From Mucilaginibacter kameinonensis (lineage in GTDB: Bacteria; Bacteroidota; Bacteroidia; Sphingobacteriales; Sphingobacteriaceae): a DNA stretch of 64,000 nt. How positions within the stretch are numbered: position 1 is the first letter of the stretch; every line of letters begins with the position of its first letter. Shown piece by piece: positions 4,759 to 64,000 of this stretch. The notes under the pieces are model-generated. The model ran no database searches. It worked only from the letters and a program-made list of their open reading frames with translations, and had not been told where the DNA came from. A program made the position numbers and the translations under genes. The stretch is from contig NZ_RCWZ01000002.1 of assembly GCF_003675385.1 (NCBI RefSeq), positions 1,426,001 to 1,490,000 of the forward strand. The letters run 5' to 3'.

Positions 4759-4782
4759 CCGATAACCTTTGATTTTTTTAAC

Positions 4783-45165: not shown

Positions 45166-45555
45166 GTGAAATTAATATTTATTGACGATGAACCAATTCA
45201 GCATTTCATAATTCAACGAATGATTGAAACCTACCTATCATATCAGCCAGTAACTCAATATTATTTCGATGCAACAAAAGTTCTGGAGTTTTTAATTAAA
45301 AACAAAAGTAACAGCGATGAATTGCCCGATATGATATTTGTTGATATTAATATGGCTATTATGAGTGGTTCCTCATTTCTTCATAAATATAATAAACTAA
45401 GATCCGGTTTAGCAAGGAAAATAGATGTTTATATTATGTCATCGTCAATTGATCCGATGGACCTGGCCCTGGCAAAAAAATACGATTTTGTTTTAGATTA
45501 TATTATAAAACCCTTGACAAAGGTTACGCTCAAAAAAATATTAGAGCCTGCGTAA
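45166..45555 (+). CDS. Single-domain response regulator (CheY-like)
   Basis: 129-aa stand-alone receiver domain. It has acidic residues D7-D8, phospho-acceptor D60 in MIFVDINM, the Ser at 92-93 in YIMSSS, and K115 in YIIKPL. No output domain follows, so it should work by protein contact or in a phosphorelay. The usual proline after the phospho-acceptor loop methionine is alanine (INMAIMSG). The start is GTG at 45166, required to keep the first strand LIFIDDEP. It stands between two leftward copies of the small unknown protein, close to the Wza gene, which suggests control of polysaccharide production or of a partner kinase encoded elsewhere. Confidence 0.88.
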   Translation: MKLIFIDDEPIQHFIIQRMIETYLSYQPVTQYYFDATKVLEFLIKNKSNSDELPDMIFVDINMAIMSGSSFLHKYNKLRSGLARKIDVYIMSSSIDPMDLALAKKYDFVLDYIIKPLTKVTLKKILEPA

Positions 45556-46007: not shown

Positions 46008-46793
46008 ATGATGAAAAATCAATTATTAACAACATTTTTAATTTTAATGGCATTGCTGACGTCATGCGCCAGCTATAAGGAGAATAGCTACTTTCAGGGA
46101 CTTGAGAGGAACCCGGAGATGGCTTATAAGATCACCAATTTTTCTCCGCCGACGATACAACCTGGTGATATTTTATCATTAAGCGTTAAAAGCCTAAACT
46201 CAGACGGCTCAGCTATCTTCAATAGTGGAGCTGTAACTATGGCTAAGGGTAAAGACGGTAGCAGCAGTGCCGCATCGTCGGCAAATGACGGGTACCTGGT
46301 AAATAAGGACGGTGAAATTCAGTTGCCTTTGGTACACGGTGTAAAAGTAGGTCAGCTTTCGCTTGAAGACGCGGCCGCTCTCATAAAAGGTAAAATTTTA
46401 CCGTATCTTAAAGAGCCTGAAGTATCACTGGCTTTCACCAATTTTAAAGTTTCGGTATTGGGCGATGTAGCCCATCCAGATGTGATTACAGTTGATGGCG
46501 AAAGATTTTCAATTACCGACGCGCTTAGCAAAGCCGGCGATCTTACCGCTACCGCCAATCGCAAAAATGTTTTATTGGTTAGGGAAGTTGACGGCAAACG
46601 GAAATATATAAATATCGACCTCACTTCGCCAAGGCTATTTGAATCGCCATATTATTATCTCAAAAGCAACGATTTGATTTACGTTGAAGCCGGTAAAGCA
46701 AAATTTGCAACCCAAAGCACATTTGTTAAAGTACTCCCAATTGTGATTTCCATAGCATCATTGATCTTGATCGCTATACAAGTAAGTAAATAA
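46008..46793 (+). CDS. Wza-type polysaccharide export lipoprotein
   Basis: Outer-membrane export channel subunit. It has a lipoprotein signal (LTSC) near residue 20. The Poly_export domain begins at TIQPGDILSLSV (about 48), followed by a low-complexity Ser/Ala stretch and GYLVNKDGEIQLPLVHGVKVGQL. One SLBB-type segment (FKVSVLGDVAHPDVITVDGE) follows. A C-terminal hydrophobic helix (VLPIVISIASLILIAIQV) may correspond to the Wza barrel helix. The length of 261 aa is typical of Bacteroidota. Two adjacent ATG codons make the start uncertain by one residue. It is the first gene of the main operon, and Wzc follows after 32 nt. Confidence 0.92.
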   Translation: MMKNQLLTTFLILMALLTSCASYKENSYFQGLERNPEMAYKITNFSPPTIQPGDILSLSVKSLNSDGSAIFNSGAVTMAKGKDGSSSAASSANDGYLVNKDGEIQLPLVHGVKVGQLSLEDAAALIKGKILPYLKEPEVSLAFTNFKVSVLGDVAHPDVITVDGERFSITDALSKAGDLTATANRKNVLLVREVDGKRKYINIDLTSPRLFESPYYYLKSNDLIYVEAGKAKFATQSTFVKVLPIVISIASLILIAIQVSK

Positions 46794-49242: not shown

Positions 49243-50547
49243 ATGAAAAGTTTAACAAGCGAGGTTGTTGCCGATAATAAATTTGCTAAATGGCAGCAAT
49301 GGACTAAGCTTATCGCCGTTACGTTCTCGGCTCAGGCAATTATACAATTACTGGGATTAGTAACCGGGATATTGATAGTGAGGCTGCTACCCACAACCGA
49401 ATACGCGTTTTATACACTGGCCAATACAATGCTCGGCACAATGACAGTATTGGCCGACGGCGGAATTTCATCAGGAGTGATGGCGCAAGGGGGCAAGGTT
49501 TGGCAAGATCGCCAGAAACTGGGAACCGTAATAGCCAGCGGACTTAAGCTCCGTAAGATATTTGGCATGTTTAGCTTGCTGATCTCTTTACCAATCCTGT
49601 TTTACCTGCTTATCCGTAACGGTGCTTCGCCTATTGCTTCGGGTTTAATTGTGTTGGCGATCATTCCATCATTTTTTGCAGCCTTGAGTGATACATTGCT
49701 CGAAACCGCGTCGAAACTTCACCAGGGAATAAACAAACTCCAAAAAAATCAGCTATCTGCGGGGCTTGGCCGTTTTGTGCTGATGGTAGGATCGCTTTTG
49801 GTTTTTCCGTTTACCTATATAGCTATACTGGGCAACGGTATACCCCGTATGTGGGCCAATATCCGGCTACGTAAAATCTCGGCCGAATATGCAGACCCAG
49901 AACAAAAGTCAGATCCTGCTGTAGAAAAGGAGATACTTGCCATTGTAAAGCGGTCGTTGCCCGGCGCCATTTACTTTTGCGTATCCGGGCAGATCACTAT
50001 TTGGTTAATCTCGGTTTTTGGCAATACACAATCTATAGCGCACGTAGGGGCATTAAGCCGTTTGACTACGGTATTAACTGTATTTACTACTTTATTCAGC
50101 ACATTGGTAGTACCGCGCTTTGCCCGCCTGCCCGAGAAAAAGAATTTGCTGGTGCAACGCTTTATACAAATAGAAGCGGCGCTTTTTGTTATCAGCTTTA
50201 TAATTATAGCGATAGTGATGCTATTCCCGGCACAGGTACTCTGGATATTGGGTAAAGGTTATTCCAACCTTAATACTGAGATCTTATTACTCACCATATC
50301 AAGCTGCCTTACTATGCTGGCAGGCGTTACTTACTCGGTATTGGTTTCGCGCGGATGGATTATAAAGCCGGTCATTAACTTATCGGTGAACATATTATTC
50401 CAGCTAATCCTGGTAGTTACTATGGACCTTTCAAAAACTACCAATGTGTTGATGTTTTCCATAGTCGATTTTTTGCTTGCTTTTGTAATCTTAATTATAT
50501 ACTTCATTTACAGGGTGTCTAAATTACCCAAACAATCCATTTCATGA
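49243..50547 (+). CDS. Wzx-type polysaccharide flippase
   Basis: Polytopic inner-membrane protein of 434 aa (about 12 helices) of the oligosaccharide flippase family, moving lipid-linked repeat units to the periplasmic side. It begins with a cytoplasmic stretch and the helix FSAQAIIQLLGLVTGILIVR, has the loop LPTTEYAFYTLANTMLGTMT and later SLPGAIYFCVSGQITIWLIS. It ends at 50547 and overlaps the next gene by 4 nt (ATGA), showing tight coupling. Together with the Wzy at 55504 it indicates the Wzx/Wzy-dependent route. Confidence 0.88.
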   Translation: MKSLTSEVVADNKFAKWQQWTKLIAVTFSAQAIIQLLGLVTGILIVRLLPTTEYAFYTLANTMLGTMTVLADGGISSGVMAQGGKVWQDRQKLGTVIASGLKLRKIFGMFSLLISLPILFYLLIRNGASPIASGLIVLAIIPSFFAALSDTLLETASKLHQGINKLQKNQLSAGLGRFVLMVGSLLVFPFTYIAILGNGIPRMWANIRLRKISAEYADPEQKSDPAVEKEILAIVKRSLPGAIYFCVSGQITIWLISVFGNTQSIAHVGALSRLTTVLTVFTTLFSTLVVPRFARLPEKKNLLVQRFIQIEAALFVISFIIIAIVMLFPAQVLWILGKGYSNLNTEILLLTISSCLTMLAGVTYSVLVSRGWIIKPVINLSVNILFQLILVVTMDLSKTTNVLMFSIVDFLLAFVILIIYFIYRVSKLPKQSIS

Positions 50548-51101
50548 AACAGAGATACCCTGCGATGCTGAGGCATAAACTTAGCAATGTTAGTATATCG
50601 CTCCGGAAAAAGTACTATAAGTTTTTAGGCATGCAGATTAACAATGGGGTAGTATTAGGCAAAATAAAATGTAAATGGCCAGACAAGATCAGCGTTGGAA
50701 CCGAAAGTGTAATTGAAGATGACGTTGTTTTTAAAACCCCACAGCCATTTGCCGAAACCAATTTTGTGAAAATTGGAGAGCGTGTATTTATTGGCCATGG
50801 ATGCGATTTTAACATAACCTTAGGACTGACAATAGGCGATGATTGTCTGATAGCCGCCAATACCACATTTGTTGATGCCGGTCGCGAAATGAAGCGCGAT
50901 TTACCCATCAATCAGCAACCTGTGATACACAAACCAATAATTTTAAAGAACGATGTATGGATTGGGGCGCATAGTATTATCCTTCAGGGGGTAACTATTG
51001 GAGAGGGTAGTATTGTGGGTGCAGGTTCTTTGGTTAACAAATCAATTCCCGATTACCAGATATGGGCCGGTACACCCGCCCGCTTTATAAAAAACAGATA
51101 A
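50544..51101 (+). CDS. Left-handed beta-helix acyltransferase
   Basis: 185-aa hexapeptide-repeat protein, probably an O-acetyl- or acyltransferase that decorates the repeat unit. Repeat turns include VGTESVIEDDVVF, IGERVFIGHGCDF, IGDDCLIAANTTF, then NDVWIGAHSIILQGVTIGEG and SIVGAGSLVNKSIPDYQIWA. The catalytic-type His in IGAHS and the C-terminal GTPARFIKNR match the family. An N-terminal basic stretch (RHKLSNVSISLRKKYYKFLG) is typical of polysaccharide locus members. It overlaps the flippase gene by 4 nt. Confidence 0.85.
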   Translation: MKQRYPAMLRHKLSNVSISLRKKYYKFLGMQINNGVVLGKIKCKWPDKISVGTESVIEDDVVFKTPQPFAETNFVKIGERVFIGHGCDFNITLGLTIGDDCLIAANTTFVDAGREMKRDLPINQQPVIHKPIILKNDVWIGAHSIILQGVTIGEGSIVGAGSLVNKSIPDYQIWAGTPARFIKNR

Positions 51102-51108
51102 AACACCT

Positions 51109-52077
51109 ATGCAATCAGTTATTTGTACCCTTTTTGAAGGACATTACCACCTCGGTGTCGCGGCATTTGTCAATTCACTTTATAAACATGGCTTTAAAGG
51201 TGATATCTATGCCGGTTATTTAGGCGAGTTGCCTCCCTGGGCCAAAACGACAGATTCATCTCTTTTCGGCGATCTGCAATTAGCAACTTATAAGGTTAAT
51301 GAGGAGATAAACATCCACTTTGTTAAACTAAAAACCAGCTACCACTTAGCCAATTATAAACCTGATTTTTTGAAGTGGCTTTTTGAAGGCCCTGCACAGC
51401 AAGTGGACAATATCTTTTATTTCGACCCGGATATCATTTTAGATTACAGCTGGGATTTTTACGAAGAATGGGTGTCTTTTGGTGTTACAGTTTGTGAGGA
51501 TGTGAATTCGCCACTTCCTCCAAACCATCCCCGTAAAATGGCCTGGAAAAAGTATTTCGGGCAGTTTAACATTGATCTTGACCTGAGCCGAGATGTTTAT
51601 GTAAACTCTGGGTTTATAGGTGTCAATAAAAAAGATATCGGTTTAGTTGATACCTGGATAATGATCCAGGAAAAAATTGGCCCCGTAATAGGCGGATTAA
51701 GCCGGGCGCCATTCCCTGGCGAAGCCAATCTTGCAAAAGAGCACGCGGGCGACTATGCGCCTTTCAGTAAAACTGATCAGGATGCTTTGAACATAGCCAT
51801 TGCAGCGTGGAGCGGAGTTGTGAGCTTTGTAGGTAAAGAGGGTATGGGTCTGCAAGGAGGTGCCACACTAATGCTTCATGCTTTAGGAAATCCCAAACCA
51901 TGGAAAATTAAATTTTTGAAACAATCATTTTTGGGAATCAGCCCGAGAAGCGTTGATAAGAAATACTGGAAATGTGTTGATCATCCGATTTCAATATTCA
52001 ACAATAATTATGTTCAGCGGAAAAGCCTCGTTGTAAATATGGGTGCGTTTATAGGCAGATTTTATACGAGAAACTAA
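51109..52077 (+). CDS. Putative glycosyltransferase, GT-A / GT8-like fold
   Basis: 322-aa protein with an N-terminal nucleotide-sugar-binding pattern (SVICTLFEGHYHLGVAAFVN) and the metal-binding motif D106-P-D108 in NIFYFDPDIIL. VNSGFIGV follows near 163 (the conserved NSG), and HALGNPKPWK at the C-terminus carries a conserved histidine as in GT8 enzymes. The overall match to named families is weak. It lies 7 nt after the acyltransferase gene within the operon, so it probably adds one sugar of the repeat unit. Confidence 0.65.
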   Translation: MQSVICTLFEGHYHLGVAAFVNSLYKHGFKGDIYAGYLGELPPWAKTTDSSLFGDLQLATYKVNEEINIHFVKLKTSYHLANYKPDFLKWLFEGPAQQVDNIFYFDPDIILDYSWDFYEEWVSFGVTVCEDVNSPLPPNHPRKMAWKKYFGQFNIDLDLSRDVYVNSGFIGVNKKDIGLVDTWIMIQEKIGPVIGGLSRAPFPGEANLAKEHAGDYAPFSKTDQDALNIAIAAWSGVVSFVGKEGMGLQGGATLMLHALGNPKPWKIKFLKQSFLGISPRSVDKKYWKCVDHPISIFNNNYVQRKSLVVNMGAFIGRFYTRN

Positions 52078-52110: not shown

Positions 52111-53232
52111 ATGAAAATTTTACTTGTTTGCGCTTCGCTGGAGCCTGGTCTTGATGGGGTAGGAGATTACGTAAGAAGGTTAGCAGCGGAGTTTTGTAAA
52201 ACTGGTCATGGCGTTATGCTGGTGGCGTTAAATGACAGGTATATAAACGAGTTAACTGAAGATAGCACCAACAATTTCGGAATAACAAGGCTCCCGAAAT
52301 CAATGCCTGAGCAGGAACGCTATAAAGCTTTTCAAACCGTATTAGATGACTTTAATCCTGATTGGCTGAGCTTACAATACGTTTGCTATTCTTTCGAAAA
52401 AAGGGGCATAACCTTTAACCTGGTAAAGCAACTCAAAAAGGTTAAGATCAAGGCCAAGATCCACATCATGTTTCACGAGATATGGATAGGAGAATCAAAC
52501 GAAAGTACCTGGAAAGATAAAATAACAGGCTTTTTACAACGGTGGGCAGTATCGGCATTAATTAAAACATTAAAGCCCGCCGGTATTTCAACATCAAACT
52601 CGTTTTACAAAAACTGCCTTGCAAAAGCGGGTATCCAAGCCAATAAGATCCCAATATTCAGTAATATGCCTGTTGGCAATCCAACCGGCAAAAAAATATA
52701 TGAGCAGTTGCCTGCCGAAGTTCAAAGTAGCCGTTCGGCATACGTTTTGGCCACCTTCTTTGGTGGGTTTCACTATCGCGATCAGCTTGATTCAAAACTT
52801 ATCCGCTTAGCACAGCATGTTAACCAGGAAATGAAAAAGAAGCTGGTGATCACTCATGTAGGTAAAAGCTCCGGTATCGAAGAACAGTTTGAACGGTTAG
52901 CACAAACTACCAAAATCCCGATGAAGGTATTAGGTACATGGGATGCTCAGGATATTGCCGATTATTTCAGTTTATGCGATGTAAGCCTCGCCAATCATCC
53001 CCTGGTACTATTTGAAAAAAGCGGAAGTATTGCCGCGGCCCTTTACAATAAATGCCCGGTTATAGTTTTAAGAGATAACATTGCTGCCGATGATCAAAAA
53101 ACTGCCGAGGTCGAGCAAGTGGAAAGGATTGATAACATTGAAAAATTTATAAATCAGGAAACCGGTTTTTCTGAAAAATACAACCCGGAAAGTGTAGCAG
53201 GGCAGTACCTGACAATGTTTAAAGCAAGCTGA
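52111..53232 (+). CDS. GT4-like glycosyltransferase with altered donor-site motif
   Basis: 373-aa GT-B protein. The N-terminal glycine loop LEPGLDGVGDYVRRLAAEF is typical of GT4 enzymes, and the acceptor-domain segment IHIMFHEIWIGES is present. In the C-domain, where GT4 enzymes have E-x7-E, the sequence reads FEKSGSIAAALYNKCPVIVL, so only the first glutamate is present. This is common in divergent members and does not prove inactivity. It is in the operon with 33- and 48-nt gaps on either side. Confidence 0.75.
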   Translation: MKILLVCASLEPGLDGVGDYVRRLAAEFCKTGHGVMLVALNDRYINELTEDSTNNFGITRLPKSMPEQERYKAFQTVLDDFNPDWLSLQYVCYSFEKRGITFNLVKQLKKVKIKAKIHIMFHEIWIGESNESTWKDKITGFLQRWAVSALIKTLKPAGISTSNSFYKNCLAKAGIQANKIPIFSNMPVGNPTGKKIYEQLPAEVQSSRSAYVLATFFGGFHYRDQLDSKLIRLAQHVNQEMKKKLVITHVGKSSGIEEQFERLAQTTKIPMKVLGTWDAQDIADYFSLCDVSLANHPLVLFEKSGSIAAALYNKCPVIVLRDNIAADDQKTAEVEQVERIDNIEKFINQETGFSEKYNPESVAGQYLTMFKAS

Positions 53233-53280: not shown

Positions 53281-54324
53281 ATGCTTAAGCCTTTAAAAAT
53301 TTTATTTATAACCCATAAATTTTATCCTGATCTGGGTGGTACGGAAGCTAACGCCGAATTTTTAGCGGGGGCGTTTCACGATAAGGGTGCAATTGTACAC
53401 CTGCTCACCTGGACAAAAGACTCTGGAACAAAAGAATTTCCTTACAGAATTGTTCGCAACCCGGGCTTGTTGCAGATAATAAGTGAGCATGCCTGGGCTG
53501 ATGTGGTTTTTGAAAATAGCCCGGTTTTACGCTTGTCATGGCCTGCCGCGTTTTTCAACAAACGGTTGGTAGTGGTTTTAAATACCTGGCTTAGTAATGA
53601 AGATGGCTCCAAATCAATGCAGGCACGGCTCAAATATGCATGGCTTAAAAAGGCTACCAAAGTGATCACAGTAAGTGATGCGCTCCGGAAAAAATGCTGG
53701 CCGGCAGCTACAGTAGTAGAAAACGCCTACAACGACAAACTTTTTGTAAGGACTAACGCAGAAGCCCAGCGGACTAAACGCTTTGTCTTTTTAGGAAGGG
53801 TAGTATCTGACAAAGGGGCCGACATGGCAATCGAGGCTATCAGTAAATTAAAACAGGAGCATGCAAATCAACTCCTCGGCGATATTTCATTGACCGTTAT
53901 AGGAGAAGGGAAAGATCTTGCCAAACTGAGACAATATGTGAAAGATCTGGAAATTGAAGATCTGGTAACGTTTGAAGGAAGTTTAACCGGCGAAAGATTG
54001 GTGGCATCTTTAAATCAACATAACTATTTGTTGGTACCATCACGGTGGGAAGAACCCTTTGGCATAGTAGCATTAGAAGGTCTTGCTTGTGGTTGTATCC
54101 CCGTAGTTTCTGATGGTGGCGGTCTGCCTGATGCGGTTGGCGATGCAGGTATAGTTTTTAAGAGGGGGGATATTGATGATATGGTAAACTCAATCACCAA
54201 TGTATTAACAGATACATCTTTACAACAACGCCTTAAAGCAGCAGCAAATAAGCATTTACAGGAGCATAGCAGCGAAGTAGTTGCTCAACAGTACTTTGAT
54301 ATTATAGAAGCATCGGTGAATTAA
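53281..54324 (+). CDS. GT4 glycosyltransferase
   Basis: 347-aa retaining GT-B enzyme. The N-domain begins LFITHKFYPDLGGTEANAEF (9-28). The C-domain has RFVFLGRVVSDKGADMAIEA and the donor motif RWEEPFGIVALEGLACGCIP with both glutamates of E-x7-E. The sugar and acceptor are unknown. The next gene follows after 4 nt. Confidence 0.88.
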   Translation: MLKPLKILFITHKFYPDLGGTEANAEFLAGAFHDKGAIVHLLTWTKDSGTKEFPYRIVRNPGLLQIISEHAWADVVFENSPVLRLSWPAAFFNKRLVVVLNTWLSNEDGSKSMQARLKYAWLKKATKVITVSDALRKKCWPAATVVENAYNDKLFVRTNAEAQRTKRFVFLGRVVSDKGADMAIEAISKLKQEHANQLLGDISLTVIGEGKDLAKLRQYVKDLEIEDLVTFEGSLTGERLVASLNQHNYLLVPSRWEEPFGIVALEGLACGCIPVVSDGGGLPDAVGDAGIVFKRGDIDDMVNSITNVLTDTSLQQRLKAAANKHLQEHSSEVVAQQYFDIIEASVN

Positions 54325-54328: not shown

Positions 54329-55492
54329 ATGAAAGTAATATATACATCGCCTAACAGTAGTCACCACTATCGTTATGCACGCATGCTTCATGAGGCTGGC
54401 GTGCTGCACAAGTTTGTAAGTGGGTTTTCAAGATTGAGCCCCCGGGCGGCGCTTGACGAATTAGGTGACGAGTTGGTTCGTAAAGACTTTCTTCAAACAG
54501 TCTATCTGGTTAGCTTAAGATCTAAGATTCCTGTTTCTGTTAGCCGGCAGATAGCTTACCTGGCTAAAATTGAACAAGACAATGCCTGCAAGCGTTATCT
54601 TGATGGAGCCGATATCTTCATGTACTACAATGGGAGCGGGTTAAACACCAGCAAAGCGGCCAAGAAAAAAGGTAAGATAGTTATAGTGGAAGCCGTAAAC
54701 AGTCACGTGCAATACCAGGAAGATTTAATGAAAGAAGAATATGAATCATTAGGGCTGCCCTGGGTTCCGTTTTATGCTAAAGAAAAGGCAAGGCGCTTAG
54801 CCGAATACCAACTGGCCGATTACATATTACTTCCGTCAAATTTTGTGAAAAGGAGCTTTATTCAAGCTGGTTTCCCCGAAAAAATGTTGTTGAGGGTGCC
54901 TTACGGCTTTAGTCAGTTAACTTCTGATATTATAGAAAATGCTGAAAACGAGCAAAGGGAATTTGTGGTTTTATACGTCGGCAGCATTTCGGTACGTAAG
55001 GGCTTGAGATATTTGATTAAAGCTTTTGAACAGCTTGATCACCCGCATAAAAAATTGATGATAGTAGGCCCGGAAAATAACCCCAACGGTTTAAATGATA
55101 TAGTAATACCGGAAGGTGTGGTTTTTACCGGCATATTAAAAGGCGAGCAGCTTAATGCCGCATATAGAGGCGCGAGCGTTTTTTGCCTGCCATCTATCGA
55201 AGAAGGTCTCGCCTTGGTATTAGGCGAAGCCTTATCATTTGGTGTGCCAATAATCGCTACAGACAATACAGGTGCAGACGATATTATTACTAATGGCGAA
55301 GAGGGATTTATAGTGCCGATAAGAGATAGCAACAGCATTCGTGAAAAACTGCAATTGCTTGCTGATGACAAGGATGCTTATAACGCTATGAAAGAAAAAG
55401 CGGTTAAAAAAGCCGGCAGCCTTAAAGGTTGGGACGAAACCGGGCGTTTGTTGGTAGCATCACTTAATGATGTATTTACCGCCAGGGTTTAA
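54329..55492 (+). CDS. GT4 glycosyltransferase
   Basis: 387-aa GT-B enzyme. The N-terminus is MKVIYTSPNSSHHYRYARML. The C-domain has VVLYVGSISVRKGLRYLIKA and the complete donor motif IEEGLALVLGEALSFGVPII, then GADDIITNGEEGFIVPI. The helical N-domain has a long insertion rich in charged residues near 60-120, as in some capsular enzymes. It starts 4 nt after the previous glycosyltransferase, so their products are probably made in step. Confidence 0.88.
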   Translation: MKVIYTSPNSSHHYRYARMLHEAGVLHKFVSGFSRLSPRAALDELGDELVRKDFLQTVYLVSLRSKIPVSVSRQIAYLAKIEQDNACKRYLDGADIFMYYNGSGLNTSKAAKKKGKIVIVEAVNSHVQYQEDLMKEEYESLGLPWVPFYAKEKARRLAEYQLADYILLPSNFVKRSFIQAGFPEKMLLRVPYGFSQLTSDIIENAENEQREFVVLYVGSISVRKGLRYLIKAFEQLDHPHKKLMIVGPENNPNGLNDIVIPEGVVFTGILKGEQLNAAYRGASVFCLPSIEEGLALVLGEALSFGVPIIATDNTGADDIITNGEEGFIVPIRDSNSIREKLQLLADDKDAYNAMKEKAVKKAGSLKGWDETGRLLVASLNDVFTARV

Positions 55493-55503: not shown

Positions 55504-56889
55504 ATGAACAAAGCTCAGGAGAGATTAAGGATACGCTGTAAGCAACTACTATATGTTATAGTGTTAGTGCTTATTTTTGAGGGAGTTGTCCGCAAATTGG
55601 TGCCGGCAGCAGGCATGCTTATTTTCTTCCTAAAGGACATTTTATGCATTATTGGTTTGGTATTGATTAAAAATGCAAAACTATCCGGCTTGACCATCAG
55701 GTTGGTGCAAAAATGGAAAGTAATGCTGATGGTGTTTGCTCCGCTGGTTTTGTTCACCCTCTTTCACGATGCTCTTTTAAGCATTTTTGGATTAAAGCAA
55801 TACCTGCTGTTCCCGATTGTGGGGGTCCTGATGCCTTTCGCTTTTCCGGCCGATAAAATTGAAGAGTTTAAACAGTTTGTGCTGATCATTACTCTATCCT
55901 TAGTTCCTACATCGGTAGTTGCTATCATACAAAACTCGTTGCCGGCTACTCACTGGTTAAACATGAGCGTTGAAGGGACTTCATTGGAAGGTTTTTCTGC
56001 TGCTGGTCGCCTTAGGGTTAGTTCAACGTTTTCATTTACAGGACAATATTCCTGGTTTCTGAATTTTGTGTGTACGTTTTTAACGCTTTGTTTCTTTTGG
56101 CCTAATAAAACTAAAGAGAAAAGCGGGTTTAAAAAAATGGCTTTATTGGTGGCTGCAAGCATCGCATTGATCATTGGTATATTTATAACAGGTGGGCGTA
56201 CCGCTGTATTGGGTTGCGGTTTTTGCTTTGTCGGCGGGCTGGCCTTTTCGGCGGTAAAAGCGCCCGGAAAAATAATAACAAGAGCACTGGTTGGCATTGT
56301 AGCGTTTGCGGTTTTATTAGGGGGGATACGTGCTGTTAAACCCGAATTTTTTGCCGCGTATGATGAACGCTCAAGCGACCACGGTGATGGTTCGCAAACC
56401 AACGAGATCTCGGGCAGGGTACAGGATGGCTTTTTAAATTGGACAAACTGGGTATTTGAACAGGACATTGTTGCTGTGCTGTTTGGTAACGGCCTCGGTG
56501 TAATGAGCAACGGATCAGAAAGGATAAGCTATTACGCTAACGACCTGAAATCAAAAGGATTTAGTACAGAAAGCGATCTTGATACAACCATTTATGAGGG
56601 CGGATTGTACCTTGCCATAAGCTGGTATGCGTTTAGAATTGGCCTTATTTTCTTCGCCCTTAATCTTTGGCAAAAGATGAAGAGTAAAGAACTAAGTATA
56701 GTTGTTTCATTTTTATTGGCCTACATCATCATGACTGCCTCGTTTGGGGTTGTAGCCAGAAACCCACCACTCAACATTTGGTTATGGCTGGCTATAGGCA
56801 GCGTGGTAATCATCAAAAACTACGACGAGCAGCAACAAAAAGAACTAAAGGTGTCAAAGCCGGAACCAGAATCGGTTTTCGCGATATAG
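55504..56889 (+). CDS. Wzy-type polysaccharide polymerase / O-antigen-ligase-like protein
   Basis: 461-aa polytopic membrane protein with about 11 helices, beginning LLYVIVLVLIFEGVVRKLVP. A conserved segment is RLRVSSTFSFTGQYSWFLNF (around 160-180), and a large periplasmic loop follows (about 280-350, SSDHGDGSQTNEISGRVQDG, then FGNGLGVMSNGSE). These are features of Wzy and WaaL families; the loop with conserved Arg and charged residues would be catalytic. Given the Wzx in the same operon, polymerase is the better guess. Sequence similarity within this family is always low, so the name rests on topology and context. Confidence 0.75.
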   Translation: MNKAQERLRIRCKQLLYVIVLVLIFEGVVRKLVPAAGMLIFFLKDILCIIGLVLIKNAKLSGLTIRLVQKWKVMLMVFAPLVLFTLFHDALLSIFGLKQYLLFPIVGVLMPFAFPADKIEEFKQFVLIITLSLVPTSVVAIIQNSLPATHWLNMSVEGTSLEGFSAAGRLRVSSTFSFTGQYSWFLNFVCTFLTLCFFWPNKTKEKSGFKKMALLVAASIALIIGIFITGGRTAVLGCGFCFVGGLAFSAVKAPGKIITRALVGIVAFAVLLGGIRAVKPEFFAAYDERSSDHGDGSQTNEISGRVQDGFLNWTNWVFEQDIVAVLFGNGLGVMSNGSERISYYANDLKSKGFSTESDLDTTIYEGGLYLAISWYAFRIGLIFFALNLWQKMKSKELSIVVSFLLAYIIMTASFGVVARNPPLNIWLWLAIGSVVIIKNYDEQQQKELKVSKPEPESVFAI

Positions 56890-56908: not shown

Positions 56909-58120
56909 ATGTCAAACAATAATTTTCGGGTAGCCATAGTTGTATCCCACCCAATCCAACATTTTTGTCCGCAGTATATAAGCTTTACAAAAATGAAGGA
57001 TGTTGAAGTAAAGCTGTTTTTTGCCTCGATGCTGGGCTATAAAAAATATGTCGACAAAAATTTCGGGCAGGAAATATCCTGGAACAACCTCCGGTTAGAC
57101 GAATTTGATCATGAATTTTTGAATGGCGAACAGGTACTGCCATCAACAAAAGAGCTTGATGCCCCATCAATAACCGAGGAACTGGATAATTACAATCCTG
57201 ACGCTATCATAACTTACGGGCATTTTCAAAAAGTGCAGCGCAGGGCGCACAAATGGGCGAAAGCCAATAATGTGCCTATCGTGTACATTACCGATTCTGA
57301 AAACCGTCAGCGCCGTAAATGGTATAAACTTTTGGCCAAATTCTTTTTGCTAAGGCAATATTACAACAAGGTGAACTACTTTTTTACCGTTGGCGATGCG
57401 AATGAAGCCTATTTCAAACTTTACGGTGTACCCGAAAAGAAATTTATCAGGATGCATTACCCAATTGATGTTGATGTATACGCCGATGCTTACCAAAACA
57501 AAGCTGCCTTACGTAGTCAAATTCGCGAGCAATACGGCATCCCCAAAGAAGATTTTGTGATAGCTGTAGTAGGTAAGCTGGTAACCTGGAAAAACCAGGA
57601 ACACCTGATAGATCTTTTGATCGATCTGGAGAGTAAAGGTCAAAAAGCGCACGCGTTCATCCTCGGCTCTGGTAAAACCCTTGATGGTTTAAAGCAAAAA
57701 GCCGAACAATTAAAGGTTAACAAAGCTCATTTCACAGGCTTTGTTGATCCGTTAAGCCTGCCTGCATATTACGCTGCCATTGATGCCTACGTACACCCAG
57801 CCAGCATCGAACCGCACTCTTTAGCTATAAGCGAAGCCATTTACATGGGATGCCCTGTAATTTTGAGTAGCACCTGTGGCAGCTACGGCGATACCGATGA
57901 CGTTCAGGTAAACAAGAACGGTTATGTGTATAACTTTGGTGATATCCAGGAACTTTCTGAGAAAGTTATAAAGCTGATCAACGATCAGCAGTTACGCCAG
58001 CAATTCAGCGATCATTCACGCAAGATCTCCCTGAAATTTCAGCAGCGCGCACACCGCGATTCCATGCTTGATTTGATAAACAAGGTTAATAAAAGCAAAC
58101 GCAAAGCTGTATCTGTTTAA
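56909..58120 (+). CDS. GT4-like glycosyltransferase
   Basis: 403-aa GT-B protein. The N-terminus is RVAIVVSHPIQHFCPQYISF, a pattern I associate with capsule glycosyltransferases. Mid-part IVYITDSENRQRRKWYKLLA is basic and membrane-near. The C-domain has IAVVGKLVTWKNQEHLIDLL and the donor motif IEPHSLAISEAIYMGCPVIL with both glutamates. The C-terminus is basic. The next gene starts 3 nt later. Confidence 0.85.
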   Translation: MSNNNFRVAIVVSHPIQHFCPQYISFTKMKDVEVKLFFASMLGYKKYVDKNFGQEISWNNLRLDEFDHEFLNGEQVLPSTKELDAPSITEELDNYNPDAIITYGHFQKVQRRAHKWAKANNVPIVYITDSENRQRRKWYKLLAKFFLLRQYYNKVNYFFTVGDANEAYFKLYGVPEKKFIRMHYPIDVDVYADAYQNKAALRSQIREQYGIPKEDFVIAVVGKLVTWKNQEHLIDLLIDLESKGQKAHAFILGSGKTLDGLKQKAEQLKVNKAHFTGFVDPLSLPAYYAAIDAYVHPASIEPHSLAISEAIYMGCPVILSSTCGSYGDTDDVQVNKNGYVYNFGDIQELSEKVIKLINDQQLRQQFSDHSRKISLKFQQRAHRDSMLDLINKVNKSKRKAVSV

Positions 58121-58123: not shown

Positions 58124-59287
58124 ATGCGCATCGTTTTCTTCACGCATCCTTCGTTTTTAGGTTCGCAGAGTATGCCCCGGTTTGCCAACATGCTTACTAA
58201 CGGCATGCAGCAACGTGGGCATGAAACCGAAGTTTGGACACCCGAGGCTTTCTTGTATAATCTCGGCGTACCAAAGAGCCTAAAGAAATGGCTCGGCTAT
58301 ATTGATCAATACATTCTGTTCCCGGGCCAGGTTCGTAAACGATTAAAAGCTTATCCAGCGGAAACACTGTTCGTATTTACAGATCACGCTCTTGGCCCAT
58401 GGATCCCGTTAGTAGCTAAACGACCACATGTAATTCATTGCCACGATTTTTTAGCGCAGCAATCCGCATTAGGGATGATTGCCGAAAACAAAACAGGAAA
58501 TAGCGGTAAAAAATATCAGCGATATATCCGCAGTGGGTATAGTAAAGGCAAAAACTTTATTTCGGTTTCAGTTAAAACACAAACTGATCTGCACCAGATG
58601 CTGGGTTCAAAGCCTGCAGTGTCAGAAGTGGTATATAACGGTTTAAACCAGGATTTTACTTCTTCTGAAGTAAGCCTTGTGAGGATGCAGTTAAGCAAGG
58701 AAACAAATATTGATCTCAGCGGCGGCTATATATTGCACATCGGAGGTAATCAGTGGTATAAAAACCGCGTGGGAGTAATCCAAATTTACAATGCCTGGCG
58801 GGCTAAAAACGATAGCAAGTTGCCGCTAATGATGTTAGGTGTGACGCCTAATCCAAAAATTATGGCGGAATATGACCAGTCGCCATATAAAAATGATATC
58901 CACTTGCTTTCGGGCAAAAGCGACCTTTTTGTAAGAAATGCTTACGCTGGTGCATCTGTGCTTTTGTTCCCTTCGCTTGCCGAAGGTTTTGGCTGGCCCA
59001 TTGCCGAGGCGATGGCTTCAGGATGCCCGGTTATCACAACCGGTGAAGCACCCATGACGGAAGTAGGAGGAGACGCGGCATTTTATATCCCTCGTCAGCC
59101 TCAAAACGCAGCTGATCTAAATGAATGGTTGCAAACCGCAAGTAACCTGCTAAATACTGTTTTAACGTCATCGGCACAACAACGTACCGAGATCATTAGC
59201 AAGGGTTTCATAAACGTAGGCCGCTTTGATACCGATGTCACTTTAAATGAAATTGAAAAGATATACCAACAAATAGTAGCCAGCTAA
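58124..59287 (+). CDS. GT4 glycosyltransferase
   Basis: 387-aa GT-B protein. The N-terminus is MRIVFFTHPSFLGSQSMPRF. The core has VIHCHDFLAQQSALG and a C-domain with GGYILHIGGNQWYKNRVGVI and the complete donor motif LAEGFGWPIAEAMASGCPVI. A GEAPMTEVGGDAAFYIP stretch follows, as in mannosyl- and related transferases. It is coupled to the preceding gene (3 nt) and followed by the acyltransferase-3 gene. Confidence 0.87.
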   Translation: MRIVFFTHPSFLGSQSMPRFANMLTNGMQQRGHETEVWTPEAFLYNLGVPKSLKKWLGYIDQYILFPGQVRKRLKAYPAETLFVFTDHALGPWIPLVAKRPHVIHCHDFLAQQSALGMIAENKTGNSGKKYQRYIRSGYSKGKNFISVSVKTQTDLHQMLGSKPAVSEVVYNGLNQDFTSSEVSLVRMQLSKETNIDLSGGYILHIGGNQWYKNRVGVIQIYNAWRAKNDSKLPLMMLGVTPNPKIMAEYDQSPYKNDIHLLSGKSDLFVRNAYAGASVLLFPSLAEGFGWPIAEAMASGCPVITTGEAPMTEVGGDAAFYIPRQPQNAADLNEWLQTASNLLNTVLTSSAQQRTEIISKGFINVGRFDTDVTLNEIEKIYQQIVAS

Positions 59288-59314: not shown

Positions 59315-60397
59315 ATGGAAAGAAATACCGATACCCTGTATATTTTACGTTTTATAGCCGCGATAATGGTGGTTTGGTATCACTTTGGCAGCCCTACATT
59401 TTTTTCTTACAATGGCGGCGAGGCGGTTAACTTTTTCTTCTTTATTTCCGGCTTTGTCATGATTGTTGCCAATGCGAGGTATTTCAAAAGCGAAAACACC
59501 GAGTTTGCGAGGAAAGAATTTTATGTAAAGCGCTTTGCACGTATTTATCCTTTATACTTTTTAGCGTTGCTGGCACAGGCTATTTTTCATTATTGCATTA
59601 AAACTATTGATACCCCTACAGTAAAATACAGGTTAATATTTGAGGTTTTAGGTATTGAACGCTGGCTATACGTTGGCGCGTTTAACGCCCCGGGCTGGAC
59701 AATATCATGCGAATTTTTTTTCTACCTTTTCTTCCCGTTCCTTATCGTCTACATGCGCAAAAATGAGAAAAGGTTCAAAACAGTGGCCTGGGCATATTTC
59801 ATTTTTACTTATTGCCTAACGCTGGTTTTATCATATTTAACTGAACTTCATTTGCCTACCATTCCTAAATTGGTTGTTACTGGACTGCGCCTTAATCCTG
59901 TATTCCTGATCTCAATTTTTATGTTGGGGATGTTATGCGGTAAGGTATTTCTTGACAGAAAGGCACGTTTTTTCAGGAATCAAATAAACTCTTTAATAAC
60001 GGTGGTACTGTGTATCGCAATCGTATTCCTGGTTAAGTTTTACGTACCGGGCTATTATGTACTTGCCAACGGTTTGCTGTCGCCGGTTTATTTTGTGATG
60101 ATATTGGCCATCACCAGCTTTAAGAAAAAAGATACGACCTTCTTTAGCGCAAAACCATTAATTTTTTTAGGTGACATCAGTTACAGTATCTATATTTTTC
60201 AGGCTCCCTTCATGAATTACTTTAAAATGTTTGTGATGCCCATAGGTACATGGCCGGCCTTAATAGTTGCCACACTTGCACTCATAGCGTTTTGCAGCGT
60301 TTTGTATTTTACTGTTGAAATGCCTTGCAAAAACCTGATCCTGAATTTTTTTAACAGAAAGCGGGCGCCTAAAGAGCCGGACTTTGCTGTATTATAA
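59315..60397 (+). CDS. Acyltransferase-3 family membrane O-acyltransferase
   Basis: 360-aa protein with about 10 membrane helices of the OafA/acyltransferase-3 type, which O-acetylates sugars on the periplasmic side. The family's first helix is LYILRFIAAIMVVWYHFGSP with the active-type histidine His22-region (WYHF). KRFARIYPLYFLALLAQAIF carries the conserved R-x-x-R-I-x-P-x-Y pattern. NAPGWTISCEFFFYLFFPFL supplies the W-S-x-E-like segment with Glu. It would decorate the exopolysaccharide repeat unit or polymer. Confidence 0.88.
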   Translation: MERNTDTLYILRFIAAIMVVWYHFGSPTFFSYNGGEAVNFFFFISGFVMIVANARYFKSENTEFARKEFYVKRFARIYPLYFLALLAQAIFHYCIKTIDTPTVKYRLIFEVLGIERWLYVGAFNAPGWTISCEFFFYLFFPFLIVYMRKNEKRFKTVAWAYFIFTYCLTLVLSYLTELHLPTIPKLVVTGLRLNPVFLISIFMLGMLCGKVFLDRKARFFRNQINSLITVVLCIAIVFLVKFYVPGYYVLANGLLSPVYFVMILAITSFKKKDTTFFSAKPLIFLGDISYSIYIFQAPFMNYFKMFVMPIGTWPALIVATLALIAFCSVLYFTVEMPCKNLILNFFNRKRAPKEPDFAVL

Positions 60398-60439: not shown

Positions 60440-61012
60440 ATGGAAACTACTATTTACCCTATGCAAACGGATCTTTCAAAATTTACTATTGGCGATTATA
60501 AAAACGGCAATAAATTAAAAGTAACCGTTTGGTATTTTATCAACTACTTCATCTTTAACAGCGCGTTTCCCTGGCCTTATAAAATGAAAGTGGCTTTACT
60601 TCGTTTGTTTGGTTCAAAGGTGGGCAATGGTGTTGTTATCAAAACAAAAGTTAAAATTAAAAACCCCTGGCGATTAACCATTGGCGATCATACCTGGATA
60701 GGCGAATCGGTTTGGATAGACAACCTGGAAGATGTGAGCATCGGGAAAAACGTTTGTATTTCGCAGGATGCCATGCTGCTTACCGGTAACCATGACTACA
60801 CGAAAGCAGATTTTCCATATCGCTTGGGTAAGATCACGCTTCATGATGGTACATGGATTGGCGCAAAAAGCGTAGTATGCCCCGGAGTGGTTTGCCGCAG
60901 TCATTCTATTTTAACTGTTAACTCTGTTGCCACTAAAGACCTTGAGCAATGGAGTATCTACTCAGGAAACCCGGCATCTTTTGTAAGGGCGAGAAAAGGC
61001 ATTACCGATTAA
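60440..61012 (+). CDS. WcaF-type polysaccharide acetyltransferase
   Basis: 190-aa left-handed beta-helix enzyme very like WcaF of the colanic acid locus: LKVTVWYFINYFIFNSAFPW and KMKVALLRLFGSKVGNGVVI lead into repeats (TIGDHTWIGESVWIDNLEDV, then SIGKNVCISQDAMLLTGNHD, the last carrying the conserved histidine). The C-terminus is NPASFVRARKG. The start may be ATG 60440 or an internal Met at residue 8. It is the last clear polysaccharide gene; the thioesterase starts 16 nt downstream, so transcription is likely to continue. Confidence 0.9.
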   Translation: METTIYPMQTDLSKFTIGDYKNGNKLKVTVWYFINYFIFNSAFPWPYKMKVALLRLFGSKVGNGVVIKTKVKIKNPWRLTIGDHTWIGESVWIDNLEDVSIGKNVCISQDAMLLTGNHDYTKADFPYRLGKITLHDGTWIGAKSVVCPGVVCRSHSILTVNSVATKDLEQWSIYSGNPASFVRARKGITD

Positions 61013-61028
61013 TACAGTTTCAGCAAAG

Positions 61029-61748
61029 ATGAGTGAAAAGATCAACTTAGTTTGCCTGCCATTTGCCGGTGGAAACAAGTATTCTTACAGGCCATTATTT
61101 GCCGAAAGTTCGGCGATATTCGATGCTACTACTCTTGAATACCCGGGCAGGGGAACGCGGATTTTTGAAGAGCTTACGGCAGATATCGATACGCTGGTTA
61201 ACGATTTGTTTAACCAACTGAAACCGATACTAAGCAAAGGTAATTATGCCATATATGGTCATAGCCTGGGTGGTTTGCTGGCCTATTTACTTGCGGTGAA
61301 AATCCGTGAGTATAACTACGAGTTGCCTAAACATATCTTTATTACCGGCGCTTCAGGCCCGTCGGCAGTATCGCGTCAAACAAAAAAATTTCATTTATAT
61401 CCTCATAAAGAATTTATTGATGAGGTGATCATATTAGGCGGCATGCCCGACGAGATTTTGCAGGACAATGCCATGCTGGAATTTCTTGAACCAATTCTGC
61501 GTAATGATTTTAAGGTGAGCGAAACCTATATCCACAAAGCTGCCGAACCACTGAATATCCCTTTTACGGTTATTACGGGTACAGACGAAGATCTTAAAGC
61601 CGACGAAGTTTTGCTGTGGCAAAATGAAAGTATTCCTGCGGTTGACTTTATACAGTTGGAAGGTGATCATTTTTTTATCATGCAGCATAGGGCTTTTATT
61701 ATCAATGCTATCGCTGAAAAGCTGATTAAACAATTAGAAACATTTTAG
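61029..61748 (+). CDS. Type II thioesterase (GrsT/SrfD-like)
   Basis: 239-aa alpha/beta hydrolase that clears misprimed or stalled acyl and aminoacyl groups from carrier proteins of nonribosomal synthetases. It has the N-terminal LVCLPFAGGNKYSYRPL and YPGRGTR. The nucleophile is Ser79 in GHSLGG, with Asp186 (ITGTDED) and His214 (EGDHFFI) completing the triad. Length and motifs are diagnostic for the family. It lies 2 nt before the hydroxylase gene, directly marking the start of the NRPS part. Confidence 0.9.
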   Translation: MSEKINLVCLPFAGGNKYSYRPLFAESSAIFDATTLEYPGRGTRIFEELTADIDTLVNDLFNQLKPILSKGNYAIYGHSLGGLLAYLLAVKIREYNYELPKHIFITGASGPSAVSRQTKKFHLYPHKEFIDEVIILGGMPDEILQDNAMLEFLEPILRNDFKVSETYIHKAAEPLNIPFTVITGTDEDLKADEVLLWQNESIPAVDFIQLEGDHFFIMQHRAFIINAIAEKLIKQLETF

Positions 61749-61750
61749 TC

Positions 61751-63373
61751 ATGAACGAGGAACAATTATATCTGAAACCCAATGTGGTAATGGAGCCACT
61801 GGTAGACAAATGGTATGCCTGGAGTCACCTGATCTCTCCGGCAACAGCCGCCATGAATATAGTTGGAAGGCACTTGGCCATTATCGAATCGTATTTAATG
61901 GCCCCGGCCATCCATGCCAATGCTGTGCTCAATCCTAAAATGAAAGGTGGCCCCTTCATGGATTTCGGTGGGGGAAGAATTGAGGAGGTGACTGAATTGC
62001 AAGACCAATCGCTTGAAAAACAGAATAAAGTTATTGAGTTTGCCAAAGCGATAAAAACATTAGACAGGCTATTGGATGCTGAAGCAACAGGCTATGGTCT
62101 GGAAGATTTGTACACAAAAGTTCCCGATATTTTAAGAGGTTACGTTGAGTTGTATTATGATCGTAATAACAACCCCGGTTTCCGGTTTTTTGAATCATTG
62201 CTGTACCAAAGCGAGTTTTATAACAAAAGCTCGCAAAGCCTGGCCATGTGGATCACCAATAACGATGAGCGCCCGTTTTGCCTGAGTACACCACGCCTTA
62301 ACGAACCGGATGTTTTAAGTTTGAACGTACCGTTTGACCATGCTTGCATTGATGCTTTGGCCGAAATGAAACGCACAGCCAATAGCTACGCGGCTATTAA
62401 AGAAATCTGCGGCATCACGCCGGAGCAAGAGCCATTGTTTAAAACGTTTTTTACAGAAACTCCGCCGCCGCCCTACGAAAAATATACCGGCGACAAGATC
62501 AGGATGCGCTATTTTGGCCATGCCTGTATCCTGGTTGAAACTAAGGATATCAGTATTTTGGTCGACCCTCTGATTAGTTATTATGGTTATAGCTCGGATG
62601 TTCAGCATTTTTCGGATGTTGACCTGCCGGATACTATCGATTATGTACTGATCACCCACAATCACCAGGATCATATCCTGTTTGAAACCCTGTTGCCTTT
62701 AAGACATAAAATCAAAAACCTGATAGTTCCCCGTACATCAAGCGGTAAACTGGAAGATCCAGATCTGAAGTTGATGTTCAATAACATAGGCTTTAACAAT
62801 GTTATGGATATCAGCGAAATGCAAACCATTCATTTTAACGATGCCATTATCACCGGTTTGCCTTTTATAGGAGAGCATAGCGATATGAACATCCTTACCA
62901 AAGCTTGCTACCTGGTAAAAATAGGCGATTTTAAACTGCTCTTCCTGGCCGATTCAAGAATTGTGGAACCTCGTTTATATGAGCTGGTTCACAAATTTAT
63001 TGGCAATGTAGATGTGCTTTTTATTGGTATGGAATGCGATGGCGCGCCTTTAACATGGCTGTACGGTCCGCTGCTTACCAAGAAACTGGCAAGGGATATG
63101 GATGGCAGCAGGCGCCTTGCCGGCTCCGATTGTGATAAAGGAATGGCGCTTATAGACATTTTTCAACCTAAAGAGGCTTATGTGTACGCCATGGGTCAGG
63201 AGCCATGGGTTGAGTTTATCAGCAGTATCAAATACACCGACGAATCAAACCCGATTGTACAATCAGATAAGCTGGTAAAGCTATGTACAGACCGGGGGAT
63301 AATTGCCGAACGCCTTTACGGCGAAAAGGAGCTATTGTACAATAAGCAGGTTGATAGCCTTATAGCGCAATAA
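61751..63373 (+). CDS. CmlA-type diiron beta-hydroxylase (metallo-beta-lactamase fold)
   Basis: 540-aa protein with a helical N-terminal domain (about 1-245) and a metallo-beta-lactamase-fold domain (about 250-540), the layout of CmlA. CmlA is a diiron oxygenase that beta-hydroxylates an amino acid while it is loaded on an NRPS carrier domain. The metal motif is H303-N-H305-Q-D307-H308. A third ligand is glutamate, not histidine (E375 in IGEHSD), then D401 (FLADSR) and E428 (IGMECDG). From memory, CmlA uses H305, H307, D309, H310, E377, D403 and E430, each exactly two residues higher. It is coupled to the type II thioesterase (2 nt) and precedes an NRPS gene. Confidence 0.85.
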   Translation: MNEEQLYLKPNVVMEPLVDKWYAWSHLISPATAAMNIVGRHLAIIESYLMAPAIHANAVLNPKMKGGPFMDFGGGRIEEVTELQDQSLEKQNKVIEFAKAIKTLDRLLDAEATGYGLEDLYTKVPDILRGYVELYYDRNNNPGFRFFESLLYQSEFYNKSSQSLAMWITNNDERPFCLSTPRLNEPDVLSLNVPFDHACIDALAEMKRTANSYAAIKEICGITPEQEPLFKTFFTETPPPPYEKYTGDKIRMRYFGHACILVETKDISILVDPLISYYGYSSDVQHFSDVDLPDTIDYVLITHNHQDHILFETLLPLRHKIKNLIVPRTSSGKLEDPDLKLMFNNIGFNNVMDISEMQTIHFNDAIITGLPFIGEHSDMNILTKACYLVKIGDFKLLFLADSRIVEPRLYELVHKFIGNVDVLFIGMECDGAPLTWLYGPLLTKKLARDMDGSRRLAGSDCDKGMALIDIFQPKEAYVYAMGQEPWVEFISSIKYTDESNPIVQSDKLVKLCTDRGIIAERLYGEKELLYNKQVDSLIAQ

Positions 63374-63407
63374 TCATTCGGCTTTAAGCATTTAGAAAAA
63401 CAGCAGC

Positions 63408-64000
63408 ATGTCAAGGCTTCAATTTCCATTACATCCCGCCCAACGGGAAGTTTACGTAAACCAACTTTTACATATGGATAGCGCGCAATATAATATTGGC
63501 GGCTATATCATATTAAAGGGCGCTTTGAACGTGGGAAAATTTCACGAAACGGTGAGCTCGCTTCCGCTGGTTTTTGATGCTTTTAAAATGAGTTTTGATT
63601 TAACAACACCAGATTTTGTTTATCAGCTCAATACCGATTATAATGCCTGCGAATTGATTGAAGCGGATTTTAGCACACAGGCCAATCCGGAAGCTGAAGC
63701 TAATATATGGATGCGCCAAACTTTTAGCGCTCCTTTTGATTTAACCCGTGATAAGTTTCCGTTTGAGCATTATTTGATAAAGATTGCAGATAATGAGTAT
63801 TGGTTTTTAATGAAATATCATCATTTAATTACCGATGGCTATGGCTTTATTGTAAGCATTCAATATCTGGCTAAAAAATACGAGTCGCTGACTACAGGGC
63901 AACCTTTTATATTCAATGCCCCATCTTATCAAACGGAGACCATTCGCGCTAATGAATATTATCATTCAGAAAACTATCAAAAGGATGGGGATTACTGGAA
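63408..64000 (+). CDS. NRPS condensation-domain protein, N-terminal part
   Basis: An open frame from ATG 63408 runs off the right edge (197 codons visible). It starts like a condensation domain (LQFPLHPAQREVYVNQLLHM) and carries the active-site motif H138-H-L-I-T-D143-G in KYHHLITDGYGF. Residue spacing from the N-terminus to the HHxxxDG motif (about 138) is normal. Other domains (adenylation, carrier) must lie outside the window. The N-terminal C domain suggests an acceptor of an upstream acyl or peptidyl group, or a starter C domain. It follows the hydroxylase by 34 nt. Confidence 0.85.
   Translation, partial: MSRLQFPLHPAQREVYVNQLLHMDSAQYNIGGYIILKGALNVGKFHETVSSLPLVFDAFKMSFDLTTPDFVYQLNTDYNACELIEADFSTQANPEAEANIWMRQTFSAPFDLTRDKFPFEHYLIKIADNEYWFLMKYHHLITDGYGFIVSIQYLAKKYESLTTGQPFIFNAPSYQTETIRANEYYHSENYQKDGDYW

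Follow-up and report, generated by a model that had tools for sequence, protein, structure and literature searches.

A block of nonribosomal peptide synthetase (NRPS) genes in Mucilaginibacter kameinonensis, a member of a genus of soil and plant bacteria, is located, judging from gene order, inside an exopolysaccharide locus and not at its edge. We analysed a window of 64,000 nucleotides (that is, the whole stretch C6:1426001-1490000 of a 7.3-Mb genome in 13 contigs) and the part of the contig to its right, with positions counted from the first letter of the window. Our preferred reading, which we consider fairly probable, is that a self-contained lipopeptide block lies within a Wzx/Wzy-type, colanic-acid-like exopolysaccharide locus and that a free, secreted lipopeptide is co-expressed with the polysaccharide. 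Each half, the lipopeptide cluster and the polysaccharide locus, is of an already known kind, and we found no description of such nesting in the open-licence literature, as far as its text was accessible and with subscription papers outside our scope. Predicted NRPS clusters have been reported in Mucilaginibacter, whose secondary metabolites are little known according to the accessible part of the source (PMC9843747).

Gene content and placement of the NRPS block

The initial annotation, made from the window alone, had described an exopolysaccharide operon that runs on one strand into a nonribosomal-peptide module with a CmlA-type hydroxylase. Open reading frames and family profile matches agree with its account of the junction: the WcaF-family acetyltransferase gene, the last polysaccharide gene 5' of the block, is separated by 16 nt from a type II thioesterase gene on the same strand, with the CmlA-type gene next after a gap of 2 nt and the first NRPS gene after one of 34 nt. 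Mis-annotation was rejected since the gene families at the junction, including those of the hydroxylase and the type II thioesterase, were confirmed by profile matches. The single module proposed at the time gave way, on extension to the right, to ten, with 10 adenylation (A), 10 thiolation (T) and 10 condensation (C) domains plus one epimerisation (E)-type domain and one terminal thioesterase (TE), as identified by Pfam and motifs. The block and the genes after it are as follows:

61029-61748, plus strand: type II (stand-alone) thioesterase, which opens the NRPS block (PF00975, 111 bits)
61751-63373, plus strand: CmlA/FrsH-type diiron beta-hydroxylase, CmlA_N plus metallo-beta-lactamase (PF18456, 299 bits; PF13483)
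63408-69701 (to 64000 inside the window), plus strand: NRPS 1, 2097 residues, C-A-T-C-A-T (PF00668, 114 bits, first condensation domain)
69758-84010, plus strand: NRPS 2, 4750 residues, docking-(C-A-T)x4 plus a condensation-family domain with an E-type motif
84023-97636, plus strand: NRPS 3, 4537 residues, docking-(C-A-T)x4-TE
97652-99454, plus strand: ABC exporter
99519-100361, plus strand: glycosyltransferase GT2, a polysaccharide gene
100410-101531, plus strand: glycosyltransferase GT4, a polysaccharide gene
101630-102556, plus strand: nucleotidyl transferase

Relatives of the type II thioesterase in PDB include RifR and the surfactin thioesterase subunit, and the docking-domain matches of the NRPS proteins were near or below cutoff in full-length scans. 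From 46008 to 102556 all genes are on the same strand and no gap exceeds 107 nt, while the response-regulator gene upstream of 46008 is bordered by gaps of 407 and 452 nt. The contig stops at 102672, about 85 bases into the next gene; in G052, one of the relatives with the same layout, the gene after the nucleotidyl transferase encodes a nucleotide-sugar (UDP-glucose type) dehydrogenase.

Since polysaccharide genes follow the block, the idea that it closes the polysaccharide operon was rejected. We place the block inside the locus because GT2 and GT4 share the polysaccharide locus of WcaF in relatives without NRPS genes. GT2 was matched (E≤1e-40) in 20 of 149 genomes of the genus and WcaF-like genes, at the same threshold, in 129. 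The 20 consist of five genomes with the layout described here, G113 and 14 others, in which match coordinates put GT2 within 100 bp of WcaF (11 genomes) or about 3.4 kb from it (three). WcaF neighbourhoods were read in 13 genomes. Six carry GT2 without NRPS genes: G019, G002 and G123 have the order gtF-GT4-GT2-WcaF-WcaI-GMD-...-UGDH-UXS, G012 has the same type of order plus two genes between GT4 and GT2, the stretch read from G032 contains neither UGDH nor UXS, and G037 has GT2-WcaF-WcaI with a weaker, more distant GT4. Among the other seven are G113 and genomes with WcaF in dissimilar gene sets. The layout genomes instead have gtF-acyltransferase-WcaF-(NRPS block)-GT2-GT4, beyond which G052 carries a nucleotidyl transferase, UGDH, an epimerase and a gene of the mannose-1-phosphate guanylyltransferase type, and G090 an epimerase, GMD and a guanylyltransferase-type gene. 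Thus, colanic-acid-like loci of Mucilaginibacter share WcaF, WcaI, GT2, GT4, UGDH, GMD and the epimerase ("UXS"), but the six GT2-bearing relatives have no NRPS genes between WcaF and GT2 and run GT4-GT2-WcaF where the layout genomes run WcaF-(NRPS block)-GT2-GT4. The idea that the block was merely inserted between WcaF and GT2 was rejected, since GT2 is upstream of WcaF in the relatives read; the order of GT4, GT2 and WcaF must therefore have changed too.

The claim of about 15 kb of Wzx/Wzy-type genes upstream of the junction largely stood. Wza, Wzc, glycosyltransferases and acetyltransferases were all found by family profile matches, whereas the putative Wzy and gtB gave sub-cutoff or weak matches, and the putative Wzx and gtA matched no Pfam family at E≤0.1, so that these two names are ones we presume from sequence type. 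The polysaccharide part and the upstream end of the locus comprise:

42095-42625, minus strand: UpxY-family NusG paralogue of the specialised antiterminator type, heading the locus and transcribed away from the operon (NF033644, 132.8 bits, cutoff 100; PF02357)
43457-44758, plus strand: WcaI-family glycosyltransferase (NF007640, 418.6 bits, cutoff 276)
45166-45555, plus strand: response-regulator receiver protein (PF00072)
46008-46793, plus strand: Wza-type polysaccharide export protein (PF02563, Poly_export)
46826-49159, plus strand: Wzc-type chain-length/tyrosine autokinase (TIGR01007, 139.3 bits, cutoff 108)
49243-50547, plus strand: membrane protein, putative Wzx flippase (position and sequence type; no Pfam match)
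50544-51101, plus strand: hexapeptide acyltransferase (PF00132)
51109-52077, plus strand: putative glycosyltransferase gtA (no Pfam match)
52111-53232, plus strand: putative glycosyltransferase gtB (weak match, below cutoff)
53281-54324, plus strand: glycosyltransferase gtC (PF00534)
54329-55492, plus strand: glycosyltransferase gtD (PF00534)
55504-56889, plus strand: putative Wzy polymerase (PF04932, Wzy_C, 21 bits, below cutoff)
56909-58120, plus strand: glycosyltransferase gtE (PF00534/PF13692)
58124-59287, plus strand: glycosyltransferase gtF (PF00534/PF13692)
59315-60397, plus strand: membrane acyltransferase AT3 (PF01757, 110 bits)
60440-61012, plus strand: WcaF-family acetyltransferase (NF007797, 214 bits, cutoff 192)

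No initiating sugar-phosphate transferase was found in the locus; the genome has four PF02397 matches, and the closest of them is some 109 kb upstream of the gene for WcaI. Near the UpxY gene, two similar small proteins on the minus strand (39700-40032 and 41624-41992), helix-turn-helix-like by eye, flank an inorganic pyrophosphatase gene; both occur in G015 and G052, and the second also in G090.

Features of the predicted peptide

Judging from its encoded enzymes, the product of the block is most likely a free, secreted, beta-hydroxylated and probably cyclic lipopeptide, because the block has a starter-type C domain, a hydroxylase, an editing thioesterase, a release domain and an exporter. 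The best PDB match of the first C domain was 7c1k/7c1h (105 bits), followed by EntF (66), CDA (55) and others down to surfactin 2vsq (38). We take 7c1k to be a lipid-starting (starter) C domain; by this similarity the first C domain is likely to be of the starter type, which points to a lipopeptide, as already suggested in the initial annotation. It would attach a fatty acid to residue 1, after which the modules would assemble about ten residues. For the A domains, nine positions of the specificity code were read from alignment and the tenth letter, K, was assumed; the residues given are those we presume from the codes:

Module 1: DAYVVAAVCK, aromatic, low confidence
Module 2: DAFWLGGTFK, Val
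Module 3: DLTKIGHIGK, Asp
Module 4: DVQFIAQVVK, Pro-like, low confidence
Module 5: DTESIGSVCK, Lys
Module 6: DATKVGEVGK, Asn, with the epimerisation-type domain next
Module 7: DVWHLSLIDK, Ser
Module 8: DTESIGSVCK, Lys
Module 9: DLTKVGHIGK, Asp
Module 10: DANIIAGVCK, X, no residue given

The chain would thus read aromatic?-Val-Asp-Pro?-Lys-Asn (then epimerised)-Ser-Lys-Asp-X. The CmlA-type enzyme would hydroxylate at least one carrier-bound residue, and the type II thioesterase would remove mis-loaded groups from the carriers. The hydroxylase, known here from its sequence alone, covers the full PF18456 model (1-232 of 232) and has near-full-length matches (466 and 383 bits) among its homologues 8a90, 4jo0 and 5kik in PDB, of which we take 8a90 to be FrsH. 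It shares their metal-binding motif: HxHxDH and the acidic residues aligned with it are kept, as THNHQDH, GEHSD, ADS and GME align with 4jo0 and 8a90, the metal-binding residues among these being those we presume.

Release would fall to the end thioesterase of NRPS 3, probably with formation of a macrocycle. In all five layout genomes its nucleophile is Cys instead of Ser (GHCLGG, at about 97043-97060), as it is in four NRPS ends of the same kind in G113. Such a Cys is not rare among the thioesterases fetched, with 17 Ser against 16 Cys motif matches, copies being counted repeatedly. A Cys nucleophile encoded together with a beta-hydroxylase raises the idea that this domain forms a beta-lactone, as ObiF does, which we regard as extremely unlikely. 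An Asp of the domain aligns with that of AB3403 (4zxh), itself a Cys-motif enzyme in which we take the Asp to follow strand 6; the alignment is weak at that end. ObiF and SulM do employ Cys, but their Asp follows strand 7, unlike that of nearly all others, according to the accessible text (PMC11298585).

Lipopeptide clusters like this one are known from other Bacteroidota, among them Pedobacter, which belongs to the same family as Mucilaginibacter. The chitinopeptin clusters of Chitinophaga likewise combine lipopeptide NRPS genes with an adjacent gene for a CmlA-like metallo-hydrolase, proposed to account for beta-hydroxylated Asp, Phe and Ile, and also carry a gene annotated with a thioester reductase domain; they differ in their 14-15 residues, with Dap and N-methyl Val, and the word "exopolysaccharide" is absent from the main text as accessible (PMC9248904). 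The cryopeptin cluster of Pedobacter (CrpA) resembles the present one in a CmlA/FrsH-like protein and an NRPS with a condensation starter domain but has two NRPS genes and no predicted epimerisation domain, and the accessible main text contains no word beginning with "polysaccharide" (PMC12181424).

Conservation of the layout and divergence around it

The closest named relatives of the CmlA-type protein are in Mucilaginibacter endophyticus RS1 (98%), Mucilaginibacter sp. SMC90 and M. gossypiicola (96% each), all of which have the WcaF-thioesterase-CmlA-NRPS junction. CmlA was matched (E≤1e-50) in 14 of the 149 genomes, and five (G000, G015, G052, G090 and G026; CmlA identity 96-100%) share the layout; in these, WcaF and the thioesterase gene are 13-23 nt apart, and the gap on leaving the block measures 64-66 nt. 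The G026 contig begins just past GT4, and its upstream side was read as far as WcaI. Recurrence in five genomes, each with a junction gap within this 13-23 nt range, shows that the layout did not turn up by chance, and the linkage to polysaccharide genes noted initially is real and common to several species. In the nine other CmlA genomes (52-84% identity), WcaF-like genes are on a different contig in eight and absent from G093; the flanks of six of the nine (L181-L186) contain no polysaccharide gene at E≤1e-8, with G068 and G103 outside this flank reading.

Both ends of the block were also seen, on two contigs, in G113, a fragmented metagenome-assembled genome (MAG) below the CmlA threshold. 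One contig ends with WcaF (76%), 490 bp, a shortened thioesterase and residues 1-41 of CmlA (83%); the other has an NRPS end (55%) and then GT2 (71%), with GT4 3.4 kb on and two opposite-strand genes between. Trees of GT2 and WcaF leave G113 unplaced, which is compatible with one or two origins. Several similar NRPS ends with Cys thioesterases are present on its contigs C9, C11, C28 and C84, perhaps from more than one related cluster.

For a wider comparison we took the best 80 of 368 CmlA loci in the genome collection, with flanks of up to 10 kb (some contigs being shorter) and the genes of the M. kameinonensis locus as queries. No comparable polysaccharide gene set was found in the fetched flanks of 76 of the 80, 74 of them without any match, which is an upper figure because the flanks were short and the queries were the locus's own genes. 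Polysaccharide genes lie alongside CmlA in three Mucilaginibacter loci (L007, L008 and L017) and in L013, from a Segetibacter MAG; L062 and L065, with one weaker match each, were not counted. The initial annotation had held that relatives with the two parts always apart would show mere neighbourhood: five genomes keep them together, but outside this group separation is the rule, in the 76 of 80 loci and in nine of the 14 CmlA genomes. The cassette of type II thioesterase, CmlA and NRPS occurs elsewhere without polysaccharide genes, and in L016 it adjoins a 55%-identical ABC exporter.

Two loci are of separate interest. L013 (Segetibacter MAG RYN_279, 1-4825) has GT2-like and WcaI-like genes, 864 bp, CmlA (79%) and an NRPS gene, all on one strand, and may be a second instance that arose independently in a different family. 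In L172 (G057; reversed, from 12170), a gene for a 1285-residue NRPS-like protein, 40% identical to NRPS 3 and with a Ser thioesterase motif, is on the strand opposite to a run of WcaF, WcaI and what we take to be an RmlD-like gene, which it abuts.

The five layout genomes fall into two subgroups. The named polysaccharide proteins of G015 and G052 match those of the window at 93-100%, and G026 resembles G090. Between the window and G090, identity is high for WcaF (95%), CmlA (96%), GT2 (91%) and gtA, gtE, Wzx and the hexapeptide acyltransferase (88-93%), is 80-83% for the NRPS proteins, and is low for Wzy (64-65%), gtF (60%), gtC (69%) and gtB (56%); G090 and G026 carry a dissimilar protein in place of AT3. 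The peptide codes are preserved where the polysaccharide genes differ: modules 1-8 are identical in all five genomes, module 9 shows slight variation and module 10 occurs in two versions. The ratio of nonsynonymous to synonymous substitution rates (dN/dS) was lowest for CmlA (0.016-0.026), followed by the thioesterase (0.05-0.08) and the NRPS genes (0.07-0.10), rough values given that dS exceeds 1 for G090 and G026. By this measure purifying selection acts on the peptide machinery, and a single module or decayed remnant was rejected on the ten modules and low dN/dS.

Co-expression and alternative explanations

The initial annotation had looked to a terminator or separate promoter at the junction, together with uncorrelated expression, as a sign of mere neighbourhood. 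There is no room for a terminator in the 16 nt between WcaF and the thioesterase gene. Promoter scans, which suit Bacteroidota poorly, gave no excess over shuffled sequence: between 45500 and 64000, a sigma-70 scan found 45 promoter-like sites against 49.0 in shuffles, and terminator-like sites numbered 13 against 19.9. The pattern TTTG-N17-21-TANNTTTG, which we take to be the Bacteroidota one, occurs three times in the window against 3.2 expected and is absent from the plus strand between 43457 and 102672. A long transcript shared by polysaccharide and lipopeptide genes is plausible because of the 16-nt junction, the divergent UpxY antiterminator and the precedent of LoaP. In this scheme one long transcript from upstream, aided by the UpxY-type factor, would yield polysaccharide and peptide together. 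UpxY and LoaP are specialised NusG paralogues, and the UpxY gene at the head of the locus is above its family cutoff; LoaP genes often adjoin secondary-metabolite or polysaccharide operons, according to the accessible text (PMC12691694). Unlike in LoaP/UpxY systems, one factor would here serve both kinds of genes on one putative transcript. NusG-like matches were found in the fetched flanks of seven of the 80 CmlA loci (L015, L022, L025, L030, L050, L076 and L079), and as neighbours of CmlA-NRPS cassettes they suggest that Bacteroidota NRPS operons may recruit antiterminators.

It is possible, though rather doubtful, that the two gene sets are only neighbours, an NRPS cluster having landed once in an ancestor's polysaccharide locus and been inherited with its own promoter inside the WcaF or thioesterase gene. 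Such an origin fits the grouping of the five genomes in the GT2 and WcaF trees and the 76 of 80 related loci without a comparable polysaccharide set in their fetched flanks, and promoter-like sites do lie inside genes, though without excess over shuffles. It fits less well with junction and exit gaps of 13-23 and 64-66 nt in all five although Wzy, gtB, gtC and gtF differ to 56-69% between the two subgroups and AT3 has been replaced, with a position inside the locus rather than at its edge, and with G113, which has WcaF...CmlA and NRPS end...GT2 despite an NRPS end of only 55% identity.

Several points count against co-expression of a self-contained block: 1) the five layout genomes are closely related and cluster together in the trees of GT2 and of WcaF, so that one event may simply have been inherited, 2) polymer genes diverge only between two subgroups of these five, 3) a promoter inside a coding sequence is possible, 4) no phosphopantetheinyl transferase was found in the NRPS block, the three family matches being elsewhere in the genome, 5) NRPS 3 is split into two open reading frames in G015, by assembly error or a real break, 6) in G093 (CmlA 84%; L009, a short contig) a different gene, not WcaF, precedes the cassette, 7) in G113 the thioesterase is shortened, its gap to WcaF is 490 bp, and we infer the joining of the two contigs, several similar NRPS ends being present, and 8) the first C domain of CDA, which we also take to be of the starter type, scores below EntF against that of NRPS 1.

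A further suggestion of the initial annotation, decoration or anchoring of the polysaccharide by the peptide, now appears very unlikely. Genes for glycosyl- and acyltransferases do surround the block, the presumed sequence offers two Lys, two Asp and one Ser as possible attachment points, and the putative Wzy weakly matches a family that includes O-antigen ligases. Yet the block owns a release thioesterase and an ABC exporter, no amide-forming or other joining enzyme was recognised among the locus proteins scanned (Wzx and gtA being without a family), the peptide codes do not track the changes in polysaccharide genes, and the same cassette exists elsewhere without such genes. We give a little more credence, while still holding it unlikely, to a two-product "matrix operon" in which the lipopeptide functions as part of the slime, as a covalent or non-covalent anchor or a surfactant, and selection keeps the block between WcaF and GT2, letting the polymer vary and the peptide stay constant.

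Under our preferred reading of a co-expressed, free lipopeptide, the ABC exporter would secrete a product not covalently bound to the sugar polymer and active in or around the slime as a surfactant, antimicrobial or matrix partner. The locus provides a candidate ten-residue lipopeptide from Mucilaginibacter with a predicted sequence, the codes of which sister species keep while varying their polymer genes. If co-expression is true, it would be a natural genetic tie between a secreted lipopeptide and a matrix polysaccharide, and would offer a direct route to ask which roles lipopeptides play within the slime layer.

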